Source: Crossiella equi
Lineage (GTDB): Bacteria > Actinomycetota > Actinomycetes > Mycobacteriales > Pseudonocardiaceae
Length of the DNA: 64,000 nucleotides
Reading direction: 5' to 3'
Assembly: GCF_017876755.1 (NCBI RefSeq)
Contig: NZ_JAGIOO010000001.1
Span: 7,425,786 to 7,489,785, forward strand
How positions within the stretch are numbered: position 1 is the first letter of the stretch; every line of letters begins with the position of its first letter. The position numbers and the translations under genes are program-made. This document shows, piece by piece, positions 3,913 through 15,960 of this stretch. The notes under the pieces were generated by a model that was given only the letters and a program-made list of their open reading frames with translations, was not told where the DNA came from and did no database searches.

Positions 3913-5873
3913 AGGACCAGCTCCGGCTTGAGCTTCGTCGGCGTCCACACCCTCTGTTTGTAGGCGGCCAGGCCGGCCAGCGCCAGTCCCAGCAGCAGGT
4001 AGATCGACAACATGATGACGTCCTCCCAGACGGTGGCCAGTCCGCCGCCGTAGAGCAGGTGCCGGTTGCCGTCGACCACATAGGACAGTGGCAGGAAGAA
4101 GTGCAGCGGCTTCAACGGGTCCGGCACGGTCTGCCACGGGAAGGTGCCACCGGCGGTGGTCAGCTGGAGCACCAGGAGCACCAGGCCGACGAACTTGCCC
4201 GCCGGTCCGAGCAGGGCGTTGAGGCCGTGCAGCACGGCGGTGAAGGCCAGTGAGGTGAGCAGCATGAAGCCGAAGGCCGCCCACGGGCGCGCGGGCTCGA
4301 TGCCCAGGGCCAGGGTGGCCACCCCGAACAGCAGGGCGGTCTGGACCGCGCCCAGGACCGCGGCGGGCAGCCAGCCGCCCAGCGCGACCCGCAGCGGGTT
4401 GGCGCCGGAGGTCAGGGCCCGGCGGGACAGCGGGCGCAGCAGCAGGAACAGCACGAACGCGCCGATCCACAGGGCCAGGCCCAGGAAGAACGGGGCGAGC
4501 CCGGAGCCGTAGTTGGCGGCCTGGTTCTCCCCGACCGCCCGCACCGCCACCGGGTCGCCGATGGTGCGCGCGGTGGCCTTGCGGGTGTCCTCGTCCGGGT
4601 TCGGGATCTGCCCGGCCCCGTCGGCCAGCTTCGAGTGCAGCTCGGCGTTGCCGTCGCCGACCTTCTTCGCCCCGTCCTGCAGCTCCGCGGTGCCCGCGTA
4701 GAGCTTGCCCGAGCCGTCGTCGGCCTTGTGCACGCCGTCGCGGAGCGTCTTCGCGCCGTCGGCGAGCTTGCGCGCGCCGTCCGCGGCCTCGCCGATCTTC
4801 CCGGTCAGCTCCGCGCTGGAGGAGGCCAGCGTCTTGGCGCCGTCGGCGACCTGCCGGGACCCGTCGGCCAGCTGCTTCACCTGGCCGACCGCGGCCTGGA
4901 TCCTGTCGTTGGCCTCCCGCACCGGCTTCCCGGCCTCGGAGACCGCGGCCAGCACCCGCTGCACCTGCTCCTCCGGGATGCCGATCTCGCGCAGCCGCGT
5001 GGCCAGCTGCTCCTTCTTGCCGCCGAGGAAGTCCACGACGTGCTGCGCGCTCTCCGAGACCTGACCGGCCTTCTGCGCCAGCTGCGCGTTGCCGTCGGCG
5101 ACCTTGCGCGCGCCGTCCGCGAGCTGCTGGGTCTTGCCGGGCAGCTCGGCGGTCTTGTCCTTCATCGTGCCCAGGCCGGTGGCCAGCTCGCCGTTCTTGG
5201 CGGCCAGGGTGTCCGCGCCCGTGGCCAGCTGGGACAGGCCCGAGTGCAGTTCGTTGATCTTCTCCCGGGCGGTGCCGACACCGTCGCTGACCTTCTTGGA
5301 CCCGTCGGCGAGCTTGCCCGCGCCGTCCGCGGCCTCCAGGGTCTTGTCCCGCAGCGTGGAGAAGCCCATCAGCAGCCGGTCGGCGGCCTCGGTACCGGCG
5401 TCCGCGGCGACCGCGCGCCGCACCTCGCCGACCACCTTGTCCGCGATCGTGCGCACGATGTAGTTGTTGGCGTCGTTGGTGGTCAGCACCAGCGTGCCCT
5501 GCTTGGGCTCGAACTTGCCCGGCGAGGCCAGCGCGGCGGAGAAGTCCTCGGGCAGGGTCAGCGAGAAGGTGTACTTGCCGTCCTTCACGCCGTCCTCGGC
5601 CTCCTGCGCGGAGACCCGGTGCCAGTCGAAGAACTCGGAGTTGGTGAGCTTGTCCGCCACCTTCTCCCCGGCCTTGAGGTCACCGCTGCCGGTGTCCTGC
5701 ACCACCAGGGCGGCGGGCACGTCCTTGAGCTGGCCGTAGGGGTCCCAGTTCGCGTACAGGTACAGCGCGCCGTACAGCAGCGGCACCAGCGCGATGGCGA
5801 CCACGGCCAGCTTCGGCAGCTTGCCCGCGGTGATGCGGCGGAACTCTGCCCTGGCCAGGCGGAAGGCGGTCAT
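3909..5873 (-). CDS. YhgE/Pip family membrane protein
   Basis: 654 residues. One membrane helix (about 20-42, ending YGALYLYANWDPYG, the hallmark start of the family) is followed by a long extracytoplasmic region of alanine-rich heptads with many repeats of LADG/VADG type (about 190-430), predicted coiled coil, then five or six membrane helices in the last 220 residues. This matches YhgE/Pip, the phage-infection-protein family of ABC-2-like membrane proteins linked to export and envelope traits. ATG at 5873 overlaps the upstream gene by four bases. The substrate cannot be inferred. The coupled upstream gene is a degenerate ABC ATPase. Confidence 0.88.
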   Translation of the reverse strand: MTAFRLARAEFRRITAGKLPKLAVVAIALVPLLYGALYLYANWDPYGQLKDVPAALVVQDTGSGDLKAGEKVADKLTNSEFFDWHRVSAQEAEDGVKDGKYTFSLTLPEDFSAALASPGKFEPKQGTLVLTTNDANNYIVRTIADKVVGEVRRAVAADAGTEAADRLLMGFSTLRDKTLEAADGAGKLADGSKKVSDGVGTAREKINELHSGLSQLATGADTLAAKNGELATGLGTMKDKTAELPGKTQQLADGARKVADGNAQLAQKAGQVSESAQHVVDFLGGKKEQLATRLREIGIPEEQVQRVLAAVSEAGKPVREANDRIQAAVGQVKQLADGSRQVADGAKTLASSSAELTGKIGEAADGARKLADGAKTLRDGVHKADDGSGKLYAGTAELQDGAKKVGDGNAELHSKLADGAGQIPNPDEDTRKATARTIGDPVAVRAVGENQAANYGSGLAPFFLGLALWIGAFVLFLLLRPLSRRALTSGANPLRVALGGWLPAAVLGAVQTALLFGVATLALGIEPARPWAAFGFMLLTSLAFTAVLHGLNALLGPAGKFVGLVLLVLQLTTAGGTFPWQTVPDPLKPLHFFLPLSYVVDGNRHLLYGGGLATVWEDVIMLSIYLLLGLALAGLAAYKQRVWTPTKLKPELVL

Positions 5874-6553
5874 CGGGTCTCGTCCTCGGAGAAGTCTTGG
5901 GGCGCCGGGTCGGGCGCGATGGTGAAGGCGGGCGGCTGCTGCTGACGGCCCAGCCGCGCGGCGGGCAGGTCGAGCAGGCGCACGGAGGTCTCGGTGCACA
6001 GCACCACCACCGCGCGGTCGCGGGTGGCGTGCGCGCGGGCGACCGACCACCAGGTGTGCGGGTCGTCGCAGTGCCGGTCCGGGCAGTCCAGCACCAGCAC
6101 CCGCACGTCCGGGCGCTCGGCGGCCAGCTCGGTGAGCAGGCGGGTGCGCACGGTCGGCGGCACCAGGTCCACGCGGGTGTCGGCGTACTGCTGCGCGTCG
6201 TGCGTGCGCAGCCACTCCGCCACCGCGGCCCGGCGCGCGGGCTTGCGGGCGTAGGACAGCTCCTCGCCGACCACGATCTTGAGCGGCAGCGCGTCCTCGG
6301 GGTCGGTCACCCCGGGCGCGTCCACCACGGCCACCAGGCGGCGCAGCGCGGCGTCGTCGGCGCGCCCGTCCACGGTGACCTCGCCGGCGGTCGGCTTGAG
6401 CCGTCCGGCCAGCGCGAGCGCGAGCGGGGTGTGCCCGGAGCCCGGTTCCCCGGCGACCAGCGCGACCTGGCCCGGCTTGACGCTCAGGCTGGTCGGGCGC
6501 AACAGCGGGCCGTGCGCGCCGTTCACGCCCACGTCCCTGGCCAGGATCTCCAC
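5870..6553 (-). CDS. Degenerate ABC ATPase-like protein
   Basis: 227 residues with the layout of an ABC nucleotide-binding domain but altered active-site motifs. The Walker A equivalent reads GEPGSGHTP, with His where the invariant Lys should be; no LSGGQ-type signature is visible; and the Walker B equivalent VRVLVLDCPDRH lacks the catalytic Glu after the Asp. It may bind nucleotide poorly or act as a structural partner of the YhgE-like protein, with which it overlaps by four bases. GTG at 6553 follows a GAGGAG ribosome site and lies about 30 bp from the TetR operator. Function inferred only from context. Confidence 0.72.
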   Translation of the reverse strand: MEILARDVGVNGAHGPLLRPTSLSVKPGQVALVAGEPGSGHTPLALALAGRLKPTAGEVTVDGRADDAALRRLVAVVDAPGVTDPEDALPLKIVVGEELSYARKPARRAAVAEWLRTHDAQQYADTRVDLVPPTVRTRLLTELAAERPDVRVLVLDCPDRHCDDPHTWWSVARAHATRDRAVVVLCTETSVRLLDLPAARLGRQQQPPAFTIAPDPAPQDFSEDETR

Positions 6554-6584
6554 CGCGGTCTCCTCGGAGTGTCTTTACCAATTC

Positions 6585-6608
6585 TTTGAACTGACCGGTC
6601 AGTTCAAA
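6585..6608. promoter_or_regulatory. TetR operator, perfect 24-bp palindrome
   Basis: The half-site TTTGAACTGACC is followed directly by its exact reverse complement. It sits 32-55 bp before the start of the degenerate ABC gene, the first gene of the operon that ends with the TetR gene. The centre ACCGGT flanked by TGA/TCA is a common TetR operator form. AT-rich surroundings (TCTTTACCAATTC) are consistent with an overlapping promoter. Confidence 0.85.
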
Positions 6609-6645
6609 TTCTGCTCCTCCGAGGAGCCGCCCGCAACTCGGGCGT

Positions 6646-7578
6646 TCAGCGCAAAGCGCCCGCCGGGCGCACCTCCCACATCGTCCACAGTGGACGATAG
6701 CCCTGTCGGGCCCAGAACACCGAGGACAGCGGGTTGGGCGGGTTGAAGTAGAGATATCCGCCCGCGGCGCCCTCGCGGGCGAACTCCGCGTGCGCCGAGG
6801 CCATCAGCAGCTGGCCCACGCCCGCGCCCCGCGCGCCGGGCAGGACCGAGACGCAGTTCACGTAGCCCCAGCGGCCCTCGGGCAGCCGCGACCCGGCCGC
6901 GGTGTGCGGGCCCGCCTCGGTCCAGCCGCACTCGGCCATGCCCAGGGTCACCCCGTCGTGCTCGGCCAGCCACACCGGGTCACCGGCCCGCAGCCGTCCC
7001 GCCAGGGCTTCGCGCTTGACCGGCACCGCGTTGGACCGCACCACCGCCGACCCGACCCGGGCGGAGTAGGCCAGCTCCAGCATCGCCAGCTCGACCAGGG
7101 AGTCCAGGTCGGCCGCCCGCGCCCGCCGCACGCTCAGCGGCCCCGGCGGGGGCGGGGCGAGGCCGTCCAGGCGCTGCCGCACCGCCAGCACCGACAGCGG
7201 GACCAGGCCGTGGTCGAGCAGCACCCGGGTGGCCGCGACGTCGCGGCTGGGCCAGTTCAGCACGCACGCGGAGTCCGGGTCGAAGTCGGCGGGCCCGCCC
7301 ATCCGGTGCTGCCAGGCGCGCAGCAGCGCGTCCATGCCCGGCGCCCCGCTGCCGCCGAGCACCGGCACCAGCTCCCAGACCCGCGCCGCCGACCACAGCC
7401 GGTTCGCCGAGCCCTCCGGGTGCTCCACGAAGTTGAGCACGCCCGCCACCTGCCCGCCGCCGGGCATCGCCGCGGTGACCGGCTCGCCGCGCGCCACCCC
7501 GGCCACCGGCGGCAGCAGCGGGTCCAGTCCGGCGAAGTGCGCGGTCTGGGCCGCCAGCAGGTCGCCGACCAGGGTCAC
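6646..7578 (-). CDS. GNAT family N-acetyltransferase
   Basis: 310 residues. The C-terminal half is a standard GNAT fold: the acetyl-CoA-binding motif A reads SVLPGARGAGVGQLLM, followed by the beta-bulge and the closing FWARQGYRPLW strand. The N-terminal 150 residues resemble a second, divergent GNAT-like half, as in other two-domain actinobacterial acetyltransferases. Substrate unknown. GTG at 7578 overlaps the stop of the methyltransferase gene (GTGA), so the two are translationally coupled and may modify related targets. One of the 13-bp dispersed palindromes lies in this gene at 6683-6695. Confidence 0.85.
   Translation of the reverse strand: MTLVGDLLAAQTAHFAGLDPLLPPVAGVARGEPVTAAMPGGGQVAGVLNFVEHPEGSANRLWSAARVWELVPVLGGSGAPGMDALLRAWQHRMGGPADFDPDSACVLNWPSRDVAATRVLLDHGLVPLSVLAVRQRLDGLAPPPPGPLSVRRARAADLDSLVELAMLELAYSARVGSAVVRSNAVPVKREALAGRLRAGDPVWLAEHDGVTLGMAECGWTEAGPHTAAGSRLPEGRWGYVNCVSVLPGARGAGVGQLLMASAHAEFAREGAAGGYLYFNPPNPLSSVFWARQGYRPLWTMWEVRPAGALR
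6683..6695. repeat. Dispersed 13-bp palindrome
   Basis: GTCCACAGTGGAC; here extended to a 19-bp palindrome (6680-6698) by flanking ATC/GAT. Inside the acetyltransferase gene. Confidence 0.75.
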
Positions 7579-11054: not shown

Positions 11055-12245
11055 GTGTTGCGCATTGGTCTCACTGGTGGCATGGGTTCCGGCAAGTCGA
11101 CGGTGGCGGCGCACCTCGCCGAGCACGGGGCGGTGGTGATCGACTCCGACAAGATCGCCCGCGAGGTCGTCGAACCGGGGACAAGCGGGCTCGCCGAGAT
11201 CGTCGAGGCCTTCGGGGAGGGCGTGCTCGCCCCCGACGGTTCACTCGACCGGGCGGCGCTGGCCTCGATCGTGTTCTCCGACGAGGCGAAACGGCTGCGG
11301 CTCAACGCGATCACGCACCCCCGCGTCCGCGAGCGCAGCGCCGCGATCATGGCCGGGGTCCCCGCCGACGGCCTGGTGGTGCACGACATCCCGCTGCTGG
11401 TGGAGAACGGCCTGGCCCCCGGCTTCCACCTGGTCCTGATCGCGGACGCCCCCGTCGAGGAACGCATCCGCCGTCTGGTCACCCACCGGGGCATCGGCGA
11501 GGCCGACGCCCGCGCCCGCATCGCCCGGCAGGCCACCGATGAGCAGCGCCGCGCCGCCGCCGACGTGCTGCTGGACAACAGCGGCAGCCCCGAGCAGCTC
11601 CGGGCGGTGCTCGACGCGCTGTGGACCGACCGCCTCGTCCCGTTCGAGGCCAACGTCCGCCTCCGCCGCCGCGCGGACCGCCCCGCGCCCGCGCTCACCG
11701 CCTACAACCCGGACTGGCCCGCCCGCGCCGAACGGGTGCTCAACCGCATCCGCCTGGTCGCGGGCGAGAAGTGCGTGCGCGCCGATCACATCGGTTCCAC
11801 CGCGGTGCCCGGCCTGGCCGCCAAGGACGTGCTCGACCTGCAGCTGACCGTGCGCAGCCTGGCCGACGCGGACGCCCTCGCCGACCAGCTCGGCGAGGCC
11901 GGGTTCCCGGTGTGTCCGGGCATCACCGCCGACAACCCCAAGCCCGAGGACCCCGACCAGGACCGCTGGCTCAAGCGCTACCACGCCAACGCCGACCCGG
12001 GCGCGCCGGTCAACCTGCACGTCCGCGTCGACGGCCTGCCCAACCAGCGGTTCGCGCTGCTGTTCCGCGACTGGCTGCGCGCCGAGCCCGAGCCGGTCGC
12101 GGAGTACCTGGAGCTCAAGCAGCGCGTGGTGGCGGCCACGGTCGGCATCGACTCCTACGCCGATGCGAAGGAGCCCTGGATGGACAAGGCCTACACGCGC
12201 GCGAACGACTGGGCCGCGCGCACCGGCTGGCGCCCGAACGCCTAG
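11055..12245 (+). CDS. coaE: Dephospho-CoA kinase fused to a GrpB (UPF0157) domain
   Basis: 396 residues. Residues 1-195 are dephospho-CoA kinase, the last step of CoA synthesis: P-loop GGMGSGKS (8-15), then DSDKIAREVV for CoA-substrate binding and the lid HRGIGEADARARIARQ. Residues 215-390 are a GrpB/nucleotidyltransferase-like UPF0157 domain with DHIGSTAVPGLAAKDVLDLQ. This fusion is common in actinobacteria; the role of the second domain is unclear. GTG start at 11055. The stop codon TAG overlaps the stop of the opposite DUF402 gene in a CTAG. Confidence 0.95.
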   Translation: MLRIGLTGGMGSGKSTVAAHLAEHGAVVIDSDKIAREVVEPGTSGLAEIVEAFGEGVLAPDGSLDRAALASIVFSDEAKRLRLNAITHPRVRERSAAIMAGVPADGLVVHDIPLLVENGLAPGFHLVLIADAPVEERIRRLVTHRGIGEADARARIARQATDEQRRAAADVLLDNSGSPEQLRAVLDALWTDRLVPFEANVRLRRRADRPAPALTAYNPDWPARAERVLNRIRLVAGEKCVRADHIGSTAVPGLAAKDVLDLQLTVRSLADADALADQLGEAGFPVCPGITADNPKPEDPDQDRWLKRYHANADPGAPVNLHVRVDGLPNQRFALLFRDWLRAEPEPVAEYLELKQRVVAATVGIDSYADAKEPWMDKAYTRANDWAARTGWRPNA

Positions 12246-12760
12246 AGCGGCGGCCAGATCTCATAGACGTTGCGGGAGGTCAGCCAGGCGCCCAGGTCGT
12301 GCCGGTGCCTGCTGATCTCCTCCAGCGTGCGGTGCACCACGCGCAACGCCAGGTCGGCGTCCGCGGACCGCAGCACCTGCCCGGCGACCGCCGCGGCGAA
12401 CTCCTCCGAGCGCACGATGCGCGCGGTCGTACCGCCCGGCACGGCCAGCCCCAGGAGCAGGTCCGTGGTGCGCCAGGCGCGGGTGTCCCGCTGCACGCGC
12501 ACGGCGGTGAGCACACTCGGCGCGACCCGCGCGTGGCGCGACCGCGGCCGGTAATGCGTCAACCGGAGACTGAGGTCCGGCAACAGCCAGGTGACCTCCG
12601 CCTCCGCGAAAGGATCTTCCGGGGTCCAGCACTCCGTGCGGAGGCCCCACGACTCGACCCGGCACTCGGAGAGTTCCCGGGTTGTTCCCGACGAATAACT
12701 GCGCACCGCGGTGAACGTGTCGACCACGTCGACCAGCTGCGGAGTGATGACCGCGCCCAC
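12242..12760 (-). CDS. DUF402 family protein (paralogue 1)
   Basis: About 172 residues from the GTG at 12760, chosen because it gives a length matching the adjacent paralogue; an in-frame start further up (12871) is possible. DUF402 proteins form a small beta-barrel; FomD of the fosfomycin pathway shows nucleotide-diphosphate hydrolase activity, but the metal-binding acidic set is not clear enough here to assign it. Shared signature with the next gene: YRVESFGL/CRVESWGL and WRTTD, then a C-terminal helix with A..ALR..H...E.I.R. Its TAG stop overlaps the coaE stop. Confidence 0.68.
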   Translation of the reverse strand: MGAVITPQLVDVVDTFTAVRSYSSGTTRELSECRVESWGLRTECWTPEDPFAEAEVTWLLPDLSLRLTHYRPRSRHARVAPSVLTAVRVQRDTRAWRTTDLLLGLAVPGGTTARIVRSEEFAAAVAGQVLRSADADLALRVVHRTLEEISRHRHDLGAWLTSRNVYEIWPPL

Positions 12761-12912
12761 AACCCCAGACAGTAGTGGGAGGGGTGCGAGGGGTGACAAG
12801 GCGGGTCGGTTCGTTACATCACAGCTCGTGAGCGGCTTGATATCGATCCGGTGAGCCGGTTCGACACGCAACCAACGACGGTTGACTGCGTTGACGCACG
12901 GCGACTAATGGG

Positions 12913-13449
12913 CTATTCCGTTCGCCAGGTCAGGGAAATGCCAGTGGACTCGAGCCACTTCTCCACAATGTAACCATATCGGGTGATGCCCTCCACGGAG
13001 TGGTGCACAGTCCGCAATGCTCGTTCCGCCGTTGGGGTGTTTATCAGGCCTTCGGCGAACGCGGCCAGGAGTTCGTCCGTGTCGAGCACCTCAAGCCGCT
13101 CGCCGGGGTGCACGACGAGGTCCAGGTAGTGGTCGGTGGTCCGCCAGACCCCCGGACCCCGCTCGACGTCCACCACGTCGAGGTAGAGGTAGTGGCACGG
13201 CCCGAGCTCGGGCCGGAAGGTCCACTTCGACACCCGCAGCCCGGCCTCCGGGAGCAGCCAGCTCCGCAGGTACGTGAATTTCGGATGACCGGGCACCGCG
13301 CGCGCCAGGTAGAGCCCGAAGGACTCCACCCGGTACTCGTCGACCTGCCGCACGAACCCCTTCGGGTCGGTGTTCGTCATCCCGGGGACGTCGAACAGCT
13401 CGACCTTCGGCGGGTGGATCCGGTGGTTCGCCGCCGCTGCGCTCATCAT
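12913..13449 (-). CDS. DUF402 family protein (paralogue 2)
   Basis: About 178 residues; two consecutive ATG codons (13449 and 13446) follow a GGATGGCGGG ribosome site. Conserved with paralogue 1 at DEYRVESFGL, WLLPEAGLRVS, GVWRTTDHYLDLVV and AERALRTVHHSVEGITRYGY. A tandem duplicate separated by about 150 bp. Its 5' end faces the first DUF5685 gene across a 129-bp divergent promoter region. Enzymatic role unknown; FomD-type phosphohydrolase activity is only a family-level possibility. Confidence 0.72.
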   Translation of the reverse strand: MMSAAAANHRIHPPKVELFDVPGMTNTDPKGFVRQVDEYRVESFGLYLARAVPGHPKFTYLRSWLLPEAGLRVSKWTFRPELGPCHYLYLDVVDVERGPGVWRTTDHYLDLVVHPGERLEVLDTDELLAAFAEGLINTPTAERALRTVHHSVEGITRYGYIVEKWLESTGISLTWRTE

Positions 13450-13518
13450 CCCGCCATCCTGCACACGAGAAGTTGCCCGTGATTCCGCTGACCGAACCAA
13501 ACTCGTTACACGATTCGG

Positions 13519-13547
13519 TGAACTCGCGGTAGCGGTCGACCTAGGAT
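13519..13547 (+). promoter_or_regulatory. Candidate promoter of the DUF5685 pair
   Basis: A good TAGGAT -10 at 13542-13547 lies 31 bp before the TTG start, with a poor TGAACT -35 at 17 bp spacing. CGTTACA occurs just upstream (13504) and again in front of the other DUF402 gene (about 12809), which hints at shared control. Confidence 0.35.
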
Positions 13548-13578
13548 CTCCCGCCAGACGGACCACTGGGGGACAGGA

Positions 13579-14766
13579 TTGTTCGGGATCATCCGGCCAT
13601 GCCGGCACCGCCTGGCCGAGCCGCTGCGCGCGGCCTGGTGGGCACACCTGTGCGGGCTCTGCCTGGCGCTGCGCGACGCGCACGGCCACCTGGCCCGGGC
13701 GGCGACCAACTACGACGGCCTGGTCGTCTCCGCGCTCGTGGAGGCCCAGCAGCACGGCCCCCGCGCCCGCCGCCCCGCCGGGCGCTGCCCGCTGCGCGGC
13801 ATCCGGGACGCGGAGGTCGCGATCGGCGACGGCGCGCGCCTGGCCGCCGCGGTGTCCCTGCTGCTCGCCTCGGCCAAGGTCGCCGACCACGTCACCGACG
13901 GGGACGGCCCGTTCGCCACCGCCCTCGGCGCCCGCCTGGGCGGTCGGCTGGCCACCCGCTGGCAGCGGCAGAGCCTGGCCACCGCCGACCTCGTCGGCTT
14001 CGACACCGCCCCGGTGCTGGCCGCCGTGGGCCGCCAGCCCGCCCTGGAGTCCGCCGCCGGGCCGGGCTGTCCGCTGCCGGCCGTCACCGAACCCACCGAG
14101 ACGGCCACCGCGGCCGCGTTCGCGCACACCGCCGTCCTCGCGGGACGCCCGCACAACATCACCCCGTTGAGTGAGGCAGGGCGGCTTTTCGGCCGGATCG
14201 TGCACATCCTGGACGCGGTCGAGGACCTCGAGGCCGACGCCGCGACCGGCGCCTGGAACCCGCTGACGGCCACCGGCGTGGACCTGGCCGAGGCGCGGCG
14301 GCTGTGCCAGGACGCGGTGCTCGGCGTCCGGCTCGCCCTGCGCGAGGCCGACTTCACCGACCAGCGCCTGGTGCACGCTCTGCTCGCCCACGAGCTCGAG
14401 CACGCCGTCGACCGGGTCTTCGCGCGGGCCGACCCGCCCACCGAACCGCTGCCGCCGATCCCGCCCCTGCCACTGGAGCCACCGTCGGGTGAGCCACCGC
14501 GCCGCAGCCGGTGGCCCTGGGTGGCCGGGGGCTGCGCTGGCGGGTTCGGGCTCGCCGCCTGCGGGGGCTGCCTGGCCTGCGCGCACTCCTGCCGCGACGG
14601 CATCCGCTGCCAGGACGAGGGCTGCCGCCGCCCGTGCGAGGACTGCGCCTGCGACTGCCGCGAGTGGACCTGCGGGCCCACCGGCCAGAAGTGCGGCACC
14701 TGCTGCGACGGCGGCCAGTGCGGCGACTGCGCGCAGTGCGGCAGCGCCTGCCAGTGCCACTGCTGA
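13579..14766 (+). CDS. DUF5685 family protein with cysteine-rich tail (copy 1)
   Basis: 395 residues, TTG start with GGGGGACAGGA ribosome site. The helical core carries conserved cysteines C8, C25, C28 (HLCGLC) and C70 (CPLRG), and an Asp-rich helix [12 protein letters not shown] (209-220) recalling the acidic motifs of all-helical isoprenoid-synthase-like folds; a homologous fold is inference. After a Pro-rich linker comes a short hydrophobic Gly-rich stretch and a tail with 21 Cys in the last 77 residues, often as CxC, CxxC and CC. Metal binding or extensive disulfide formation is likely. Role unknown. Followed 51 bp later by a close paralogue. Confidence 0.8.
   Translation: MFGIIRPCRHRLAEPLRAAWWAHLCGLCLALRDAHGHLARAATNYDGLVVSALVEAQQHGPRARRPAGRCPLRGIRDAEVAIGDGARLAAAVSLLLASAKVADHVTDGDGPFATALGARLGGRLATRWQRQSLATADLVGFDTAPVLAAVGRQPALESAAGPGCPLPAVTEPTETATAAAFAHTAVLAGRPHNITPLSEAGRLFGRIVHILDAVEDLEADAATGAWNPLTATGVDLAEARRLCQDAVLGVRLALREADFTDQRLVHALLAHELEHAVDRVFARADPPTEPLPPIPPLPLEPPSGEPPRRSRWPWVAGGCAGGFGLAACGGCLACAHSCRDGIRCQDEGCRRPCEDCACDCREWTCGPTGQKCGTCCDGGQCGDCAQCGSACQCHC
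14083..14307 (+). repeat. Gene-conversion tract, copy 1
   Basis: 225 bp that match 15322-15546 with four mismatches by eye, without gaps. Sequence on both sides diverges sharply. Lies in the central part of the DUF5685 core. Confidence 0.85.
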
Positions 14767-14817
14767 CCGACGCCACCACTGATCGACGAACCGCGTTACG
14801 TCCTGGGGGAGAAGACC

Positions 14818-15960
14818 ATGTTCGGCATCATCCGGCCCTGCCGCCACCGGCTCGACGAGTCCCTGCGCGCGGCCTGGTGGGCGCACCTGTGCGGCCTGTG
14901 CCTGGCCCTGCGCGATGACCACGGGCAGACCGCGCGCGCCGCGACCAACTACGACGGCCTGGTGATCTCCGCGCTCGTCGAGGCCCAGCAGCAGGGCAGG
15001 CGGGCCCGCCGCGCGGCCGGTCCGTGCCCGCTGCGCGGCATGCGCGGCACCGAGATCGCCAACGGTGACGGTGCGCGACTGGCCGCCGTGGTCTCACTCG
15101 TCCTGGCCTCGGCCAAGATCTCCGACCACGTCACCGACCGGGACGGGGTCTTCGCCGCCCGCCCCGTCGCCGGGCTGGCCCGCCGCCTCACCTCCCGCTG
15201 GGCCCAGCGCGCCGGGCGCAGCGGTGCCGACCTGGGCTTCGACACCGCCGTGCTGCTCGACGCGGTGCGGCGGCAGCCCGAGGTCGAGGCCGCCGCCGGG
15301 CTCGGCAGCTCGGTCCTGGTGGTCACCGAACCCACCGAGACGGCCACCGCGGCCGCGTTCGCGCACACCGCCGTCCTCGCGGGACGCCCGCACAACATCA
15401 GCCCGTTGAGTGAGGCAGGGCGGCTTTTCGGCCGGATCGTGCACATCCTGGACGCGGTCGAGGACCTTGAGGCGGACACCGCGACCGGCGCCTGGAACCC
15501 GCTGACGGCCACCGGCGTGGACCTGGCCGAGGCGCGGCGGCTGTGCGAGGACGCGGTGCTGGGCGTGCGGCTGGCCCTCAAGGAGGCCGATTTCACCGAC
15601 CAGCGCCTGGTGCACGCGCTGCTCGCGCACGAGCTCGACCAGGCGGTGCGGCGCGTGTTCGCGCAGAGCGCACCCGAGGCACCCGGAGCGCCGGAGGCAC
15701 CCGAGCAACCGCACAAGCACGAGGCCCCGGAGGTCAAGGGCCCCCAGCGCGGCCTGCTGATGGGCTGCGGCGTCGCCGCGCTGGGCCTGTTCACCTGCCA
15801 GACCTGCTGCGCCGAGGAGTACCACGACCCGTGGACCGGTGAGCGCAAGGAAGGCTGGTGCCGCCGGGACAACTGCTGCAACGAGTGCGGCTGCAACGCC
15901 TGCGACGGGTGCTGCGACAGCTGCTGCTGCGACGGTTGTGACTGCTCCTGCGACTGCTGA
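14818..15960 (+). CDS. DUF5685 family protein with cysteine-rich tail (copy 2)
   Basis: 380 residues, ATG start preceded by GGGGGAGA. Same core as copy 1 ([23 protein letters not shown]), but the tail is different in sequence while keeping the character: 19 Cys in the last 64 residues, ending in CC, CCC and CxC runs. A 225-bp block (15322-15546) is almost identical to copy 1 (14083-14307), far more alike than the rest, which points to recent gene conversion. Probably co-transcribed with copy 1; uvrB starts 62 bp downstream. Confidence 0.8.
15322..15546 (+). repeat. Gene-conversion tract, copy 2
   Basis: Partner of 14083-14307: same length, about 98% identity, encoding the Thr-Glu-Thr helix and Asp-rich helix of the second DUF5685 protein. 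Confidence 0.85.

Follow-up and report, generated by a model that had tools for sequence, protein, structure and literature searches.

This work concerns a pair of tandem genes for proteins of the domain family DUF5685 (PF18937), located on the + strand at positions 13579..14766 (copy 1, P0001) and 14818..15960 (copy 2, P0002) of a 64,000-nt stretch of DNA, referred to here as the window, from the 9.44 Mb single-contig genome of Crossiella equi (family Pseudonocardiaceae). Predicted models indicate that the core of these proteins very probably has the class I isoprenoid (trans-prenyl diphosphate) synthase fold, and the family is associated with strings of cysteine residues: the Cys string is located on the enzyme-like protein itself in actinomycetes and on the product of a neighbouring gene in most of the other bacteria in which DUF5685 was seen. 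We propose that DUF5685 may transfer prenyl groups to such a Cys string and that the modified string would anchor its protein to the membrane, a mechanism to which, taken as a whole, we assign a probability of about 0.3. In this way a domain of unknown function acquires a fold by prediction, a site that likely binds metal and diphosphate, and a partner linked to it, and the combination hints at an undescribed bacterial way to lipid-anchor or modify proteins. The isoprenoid synthase superfamily is known; its proposed link through DUF5685 to cysteine strings did not turn up in the open-access literature searched.

Copy 1 encodes a protein of 395 aa with a TTG start (PF18937 E=2e-18), in which an isoprenoid-synthase-like core (residues 1-~285) is followed by a Pro-rich linker and a Cys-rich tail (residues 319-395, 14533..14763, + strand). 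Copy 2 encodes 380 aa (PF18937 E=1e-19), likewise composed of an isoprenoid-synthase-like core (14818..15672, + strand) and a Cys-rich tail (residues 317-380, 15766..15957, + strand). The two proteins score 67.2 and 71.5 bits against a curated PF18937 cut-off of 26.7, share 68% identity across 367 residues and have no match in NCBIfam; their nearest named relatives in the locus scan are also from Crossiella (loci L062 and L063, core identity 88-89%). The HLCGLC and CPLRG motifs and the Asp-rich stretches pointed out in an initial annotation of this DNA are present. As a separate observation, the alignment of the two genes contains a gene-conversion-like tract, in which three neighbouring 60-column segments are 58-59/60 identical; outside this tract the identity is 38-55/60 upstream and 26-35 in the tail.

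Predicted fold and invariant residues of the DUF5685 core

The full chain of copy 2 was modelled by AlphaFold2 from 65 sequences with a predicted local distance difference test score (pLDDT) of 84.0, values below 50 being found at residues 299-307 and 352-380, and the core alone from 55 sequences with a pLDDT of 91.8 and a predicted TM-score (pTM) of 0.91. When the two models were compared with the PDB by Foldseek, the best 50 of 553 and of 551 matches (E<=10) were all isoprenoid/prenyl diphosphate synthases or prenyltransferases of that fold. These best-50 matches had a probability of 1.00, with best E-values of 1.5e-4 and 3.9e-4 and with 7 and 13 matches at E<=0.001; the TM-score of the core reached 0.66 among the best 50 listed. 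The two best fold matches in a viral library were trans-prenyltransferases as well. The comparison with isoprenoid synthases put forward in the initial annotation is therefore correct at the level of the fold, as far as the predicted models and their best-50 matches go. At the sequence level, a profile built from 10 cores and searched against PDB sequences (up to E=10) gave a single match, the polyprenyl synthetase 4lob (E=0.0066), in whose alignment both DUF5685 Asp motifs are in register with DDVVD and DDILD of that enzyme; 4lob was also the best match of copy 2 in a phmmer search of the PDB (E 0.21). In the core model the Asp motifs are located at the ends of predicted helices 84-106 and 191-223. 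The traits of the class I isoprenoid synthase superfamily, an all-alpha fold with a first and a second Asp-rich motif, all appear to be present. The model also contains a strand pair (64-67/78-81) around C70; this pair and the Cys site described below are, we presume, unlike the known fold of the trans-isoprenyl diphosphate synthases (trans-IDS).

The conserved residues were examined in an alignment of 25 rows (one gene entered twice), comprising 14 actinomycete and 11 distant rows, the latter from the class of genome G212, from Clostridia and from faecal contigs. Twelve residues are invariant in all 25 rows: C25, C28, C70, D46, D103, D107, E157, D212, A213, D216, D220 and N227. The DxxxD spacing is thus kept in both motifs (D103xxxD107 and D212xxxD216xxxD220, 25/25 rows), and the second motif reads DAxxDxxxD in 132 of 133 actinomycete cores. 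Pairs of DDXXD or DXXXD motifs are typical of trans-prenyltransferases according to a review (PMC7839719), and the two Asp motifs of DUF5685 likely form a Mg-diphosphate binding site. The fourth conserved Cys of copy 2, C8, is present in 52/52 actinomycete-side loci found by the Pfam profile and in 0/11 distant rows; the figure of 52/52 is the unbiased count, as other groupings and one of the two scan patterns had partly used C8. A His residue is found three residues after C70 in 9 of 10 distinct distant sequences (the exception is L153), and this exchange of C8 for His as the fourth ligand is as expected of a tetrahedral metal site. The C8/C25/C28/C70 site is probably a structural Zn site.

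Cysteine strings on the protein itself and on a J-domain neighbour

The tails of copy 1 and copy 2 contain 21 Cys in the last 77 residues and 19 Cys in the last 64, respectively, which confirms the counts given in the initial annotation; against a baseline of 0.49% Cys in four other window proteins the binomial probabilities are ~1e-30 and ~1e-28. Related proteins were collected with the pattern FG..[RKTQ][PA] plus CGxC, which missed a Tsukamurella copy in L158 and the L159 frame, and the tail counts leave out exact duplicates as well as proteins truncated at the end of a locus. Tails absent from orthologues, or poor in Cys there, had been named beforehand among the outcomes that would speak against that annotation. 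This outcome did not occur: the last 30 residues contain 6 or more Cys in 130 of 131 distinct complete actinomycete-type proteins, as well as in all 52 proteins found by the Pfam profile; the single exception, L090, has 4 Cys in this region and may be frameshifted. The mean number of Cys in the last 62 residues is 17.7 (SD 4.2, n=132, one tail-less distant relative included), or ~30% Cys.

Within the tail a block of the form TCQxCC...P[WFC] is present in 110/131 proteins (W in 91, F in 14 and C in 5), including copy 2, in the widespread PW form, and the 20 residues around it are hydrophobic with a mean grand average of hydropathy (GRAVY) of 1.36 (n=110). Among the 21 proteins that lack the block are Crossiella copy 1 and similar copies from its genus, Nocardia proteins and the second copies in Kibdelosporangium-type loci; among the loci compared, the tail type of copy 1 was found solely in the genus of the window (L004, L020, L029, L062, L063). 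At core identities of 0.75-0.95, the Cys columns of the tail are conserved at 0.83-0.95 compared with 0.50-0.84 for the other columns, a contrast obtained from alignments with many gaps and inflated because BLOSUM62 favours C-C pairs. That comparison required at least 12 Cys per protein, which removed one actinomycete and one distant protein, and a tail of at least 45 residues; neither rule was applied to the mean of 17.7. The earlier suggestion that composition and not sequence is selected thus stands for the last residues, which vary at similar Cys density, but not for the conserved block; one part of the tail is kept by sequence and its end by composition. A Pfam scan of the copy 2 tail detected 0 families. 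Trp occurs in the last 70 residues of 126/131 actinomycete proteins.

Outside the actinomycetes, the family was examined in the class of genome G212, a class of the same phylum represented by 119 genomes, which from its gene content we take to be, probably, Coriobacteriia. DUF5685 is present in 11/119 of these genomes, and a J-domain protein (query from L145, E<=1e-20) is present in the same 11 genomes and in no others, the two genes being adjacent by coordinates in 9/11. The DUF5685 proteins of this class have no Cys-rich end (9 sequences), and in L145 and L180 their final 30 residues are free of Cys. The J proteins, in contrast, carry 5-8 Cys within their final 30 residues in 11/11, and in 9/11 there is no other Cys after the start of the J domain. 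The ends of the J proteins are hydrophobic (GRAVY 0.62-1.45 over 30 residues, 11/11) and contain Trp in 8/11. Of the J proteins, three were scanned against Pfam: all three contain the DnaJ domain PF00226 (E 5e-21 to 3e-18), and a tetratricopeptide repeat (TPR) match was above the cut-off in that of L152 alone and sub-threshold in that of L145. A gene with Hsp70 motifs adjoins the J gene in 8/11 genomes (L142-L145, L147, L148 and L150 among the loci; confirmed by Pfam for L145 only), giving the gene order DUF5685 - J - Hsp70; in the available flanks of the remaining 3 it was not seen.

The same DUF5685-J pair was found in three further records, namely L152, a plasmid record of Pusillibacter faecalis (Clostridia), and L154 and L155, two faecal contigs deposited as Bacteriophage sp. 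(host not assigned), and the J proteins of all three have 5-8 Cys at the end. The partner gene found for DUF5685, in the distant class and in these records, is accordingly a J-domain protein with a Cys string and not DUF402, the family encoded next to it in the window. The annotated genes of the pair overlap by 4 bases in L152, and the reading frames by 8 bases in L145 and by 4 in L188, which suggests coupled translation. The genome of the window contains three J-like matches, none with a Cys end. In L152 the pair (~5586-7508) lies between cdaA/CdaR/RseC-family genes and YicC/gmk/rpoZ/priA genes, and ispD and ispF are found ~4-5 kb upstream of it. Besides the actinomycetes and the class of G212, DUF5685 is found in Clostridia and in Thermotoga maritima, the latter matched as a control genome. 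In plasmid and phage collections the distant-class query matched 4 records each and copy 2 matched 4 plasmid records, two of them shared; loci L152-L159 were examined from these matches and two others (H3, H12) were left out. Scans of viral contigs for distant DUF5685 relatives yielded none that was confirmed.

Comparison with known systems and possible functions

The trans-isoprenyl diphosphate synthases of PF00348 (farnesyl, geranylgeranyl and octaprenyl diphosphate synthases; MoeN5) resemble DUF5685 in the predicted all-alpha fold and in two Asp motifs in the same order. DUF5685 differs from them in having no PF00348 match at E<=1, in not keeping the second Asp of each DDxxD and in adding a C-terminal Cys tail or a Cys-string partner. 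ComQ, ChrPC and PalQ are trans-IDS-like peptide prenyltransferases of the isoprenoid synthase superfamily (PMC13290415), and ComQ is reported to require Asp at positions one and five of its first motif (PMC5331326). DUF5685 is like ComQ, PalQ and the P domain of ChrPC in its superfamily, in keeping these two Asp (25/25) and in having a candidate acceptor in the same or the next gene; it differs in the second motif, DAxxD, and in that its candidate acceptor is a Cys string, the known enzymes modifying Trp of peptides. Since the residues needed in the first motif are present and those of the second are not, DUF5685 is not classed as ComQ-type, although it may work alike. The cysteine string protein (CSP; PMC4447612) shares with the J partner a J domain and a Cys string. 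CSP is eukaryotic and palmitoylated; the J partner of bacteria is unlike it outside these two elements and is not known to be lipidated. Metallothioneins are similar in Cys density to the final C/D-rich part of the tail, but the DUF5685 tail is appended to a folded enzyme-like core, usually with a conserved hydrophobic block, and has no Pfam match. The search covered the open-access literature, with subscription papers and preprints outside its scope: no functional study of DUF5685/PF18937 was found there, DUF5685 being mentioned only in the domain list of one paper and PF18937 nowhere, nothing was found on SCO1748 or on DUF402 with uvrB, and no pairing of the isoprenoid synthase superfamily with cysteine strings was found in the titles and abstract openings.

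In the mechanism that we propose, DUF5685 would bind an allylic prenyl diphosphate via Mg and the two DxxxD motifs, attach its prenyl group to residues within a Cys string and so provide the protein carrying the string with a membrane anchor. The acceptor would be the C-terminal tail of the enzyme itself (in cis) in actinomycetes, including the two proteins of the window. In the distant class and in the record from Clostridia it would be the string at the C-terminus of the J-domain co-chaperone encoded next door (in trans). The acceptor residues may be Cys, or else Trp, which is common in the tail (126/131) and would be modified as in the ComQ-type peptide prenyltransferases. Support for the mechanism comes from the predicted fold, the invariant Asp motifs and Cys residues, the Cys tail in 130/131 proteins, the co-occurrence of DUF5685 with the J protein and the precedent of ComQ, ChrPC and PalQ. 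A bolder form of the proposal, which on present evidence we would call unlikely, is that the trans-IDS-like protein prenyltransferases include DUF5685 as a new branch, one that lipidates Cys strings, in cis in actinomycetes and in trans on the J protein in other bacteria. If it were true, bacteria would have a cytosolic, isoprenoid-anchored cysteine-string co-chaperone parallel to the eukaryotic cysteine string proteins and made by an unrelated enzyme, and a fold tied to cysteine strings would extend the class of trans-IDS-like peptide prenyltransferases and offer a route to lipid-anchored chaperones.

A number of observations weigh against prenyl transfer to the Cys string. No isoprenoid-synthase Pfam family (PF00348 included) matched the window proteins at E<=1 in hmmscan, and hhalign against 7 polyprenyl synthetases (drawn from 7 of 20 loci) gave probabilities below 1%, from low-diversity alignments with little power. 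Profile-profile proof of homology to polyprenyl synthetases was therefore rejected, the hhalign result not being significant, and homology to isoprenoid synthases is drawn from the predicted fold together with the motif alignment. The listed fold matches have a root-mean-square deviation of 5.6-12.9 A and an identity of 10-18%, and the segments of the 4lob match are weak singly (i-Evalues 24 and 3.4). All characterised trans-IDS-like peptide prenyltransferases are reported to modify Trp (PMC13290415), and ComQ requires NDxxx or GDxxx in the second motif (PMC5331326), where DUF5685 has DAxxD. The 11 genomes that carry both genes come from 6 genera and, being related, do not represent independent events, the match between DUF5685 and J genomes depends on the chosen cut of E<=1e-20, and the clostridial locus L153 (Subdoligranulum) has DUF5685 with no J gene found. 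The gene directly upstream of the pair in L152 belongs to the RseC (SoxR-reducing) family, a better fit to a redox role, and the C/D-rich ends of the tails look metal-binding rather than lipid-anchoring. The fold of DUF5685 is predicted, and the activity ascribed to it is inferred.

The predicted fold and the DxxxD motifs would also suit an ordinary synthase of small molecules (prenyl diphosphates or terpenes). The Cys string would then not be a substrate but would tie the protein to a membrane or a complex, through S-acylation or simply by being hydrophobic, and in the distant class the J protein with Hsp70 would be a chaperone dedicated to its folding or delivery. This explanation, which we hold to be about as probable as the proposed mechanism, agrees with the hydrophobic, Cys-rich character of the tail block (GRAVY 1.36) and of the J-protein ends (0.62-1.45), with the Hsp70-motif gene beside the J gene in 8/11 genomes and with the presence of ispD and ispF ~4-5 kb upstream in L152; it has to contend with contexts that vary by lineage (uvrB in 34/80 loci, a SepF-family gene in 24 and neither in 22; no search was aimed at biosynthetic clusters), and a plain anchor leaves the ~30% Cys, at similar density in nearly all tails, unexplained. 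That Cys density is kept while the sequence drifts would be accounted for if the tail were a store or delivery arm for metal (Zn or Cu), with the core using its fold as a scaffold or acting on another substrate, a role for the tail already raised in the initial annotation; the conservation of the Cys columns (0.83-0.95 vs 0.50-0.84, inflated by BLOSUM62) and the C/D-rich ends, which are like metallothionein in composition, point the same way. We nevertheless consider a metal arm unlikely, as the tail has no Pfam match, the hydrophobic P[WFC] block is conserved in 110/131 proteins, the strings of the J partners hold just 5-8 Cys in a hydrophobic setting, and both Asp motifs are invariant, which is unexpected for a mere scaffold.

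HscB and HscA act on IscU, and by analogy the J protein and Hsp70 could act on Cys clusters in a thiol-redox or Fe-S device, the actinomycete tail then being an oxidation-sensitive scaffold. The DUF5685 - J - Hsp70 order in 8/11 genomes, the invariant C25, C28 and C70 and the RseC-family gene directly upstream in L152 are in keeping with such a device; the three J proteins scanned have no HscB-type Pfam match (no systematic search covered Fe-S assembly genes around the loci), and we regard this explanation as improbable.

Neighbouring genes and the DUF402 family

In the window, a coaE-GrpB fusion gene and uvrB bracket four genes, two on the - strand and two, the DUF5685 copies, on the + strand. 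The gene at 12913..13449 (-) encodes a DUF402 protein (PF04167 E=1.2e-15; sub-threshold FomD match in NCBIfam, 26.2 bits vs 320) and is a divergent neighbour outside the proposed system. The gene at 12242..12775 (-), with an uncertain start codon, encodes a DUF402-like paralogue, also a neighbour only, which has 32% identity to the other copy (E=9e-24) and no Pfam match at E<=1 in hmmscan. The initial annotation had described two tandem paralogue pairs facing each other across 129 bp. The DUF5685 pair is as described and the gap between the DUF402 gene and DUF5685 copy 1 is indeed 129 bp; of the other pair, only the product of 12913-13449 is a DUF402 protein by Pfam, and its genes lie on the - strand, which makes the arrangement divergent (back to back) and not facing.

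The initial annotation had further held it conceivable that the DUF402 and DUF5685 genes form one two-family functional system, and the best DUF402 match is indeed located within 4 kb in 57 of 65 DUF5685-positive genomes in a sample of 150 genomes of the window's family. In the same sample, however, a DUF402 relative (E<=1e-10) is present in 149/150 genomes, whether or not DUF5685, found in 65/150, is there, so that DUF402 is a neighbour and not a partner. Among 80 named DUF5685 loci, examined with flanks of at most 10 kb and less where a contig ends, DUF402 lies close by in 34 and was not found in the flanks of the other 46. With phylogenetic profiles so unlike and with synteny absent from 46/80 loci, the DUF402 partnership was rejected, and a common system of the two families is very improbable.

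The 80 loci have no single conserved neighbour among the actinomycetes: 34 have DUF402 together with uvrB, which is nearby in all 34, 24 have a SepF-family gene and 22 have neither. The genera of 33 of the 34 DUF402/uvrB loci are placed in Pseudonocardiaceae, Crossiella and Lentzea having been checked and the others being presumed to belong there. The one remaining locus is L101; its contig, labelled Rhodococcus rhodnii NRRL B-16535, has the same two-copy DUF5685 and uvrB layout as Kibdelosporangium (L110) and is probably mislabelled. The SepF-family gene, named from the Pfam match of the L140 copy (L140:9260-9709), is found mostly in Streptomyces loci; it is divergent and starts ~0.23-0.45 kb upstream of DUF5685 in 23/24 of the loci that have it; in L093 it is 2.1 kb away. 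Two DUF5685 copies occur in 5/5 genomes of the window's genus and in 4/6 of genus g27, and one copy in the other 54 positive family genomes (the two matches of G031 are pieces of one frame), so that the tandem pair is lineage-specific within the family sample.

The remaining observations concern the genes around the DUF5685 pair. The bracketing gene at 11055-12245 joins a dephospho-CoA kinase (CoaE, E=5.9e-58) and a GrpB domain (E=2.8e-41) in a single protein. The window proteins have no match in PHROGs at E<=0.1. The paralogue at 12242-12775 is 98% identical to its Crossiella counterparts (L062, L063), compared with just 78-80% for the adjoining DUF402 gene, which would reflect either unusually strong conservation or recent exchange.

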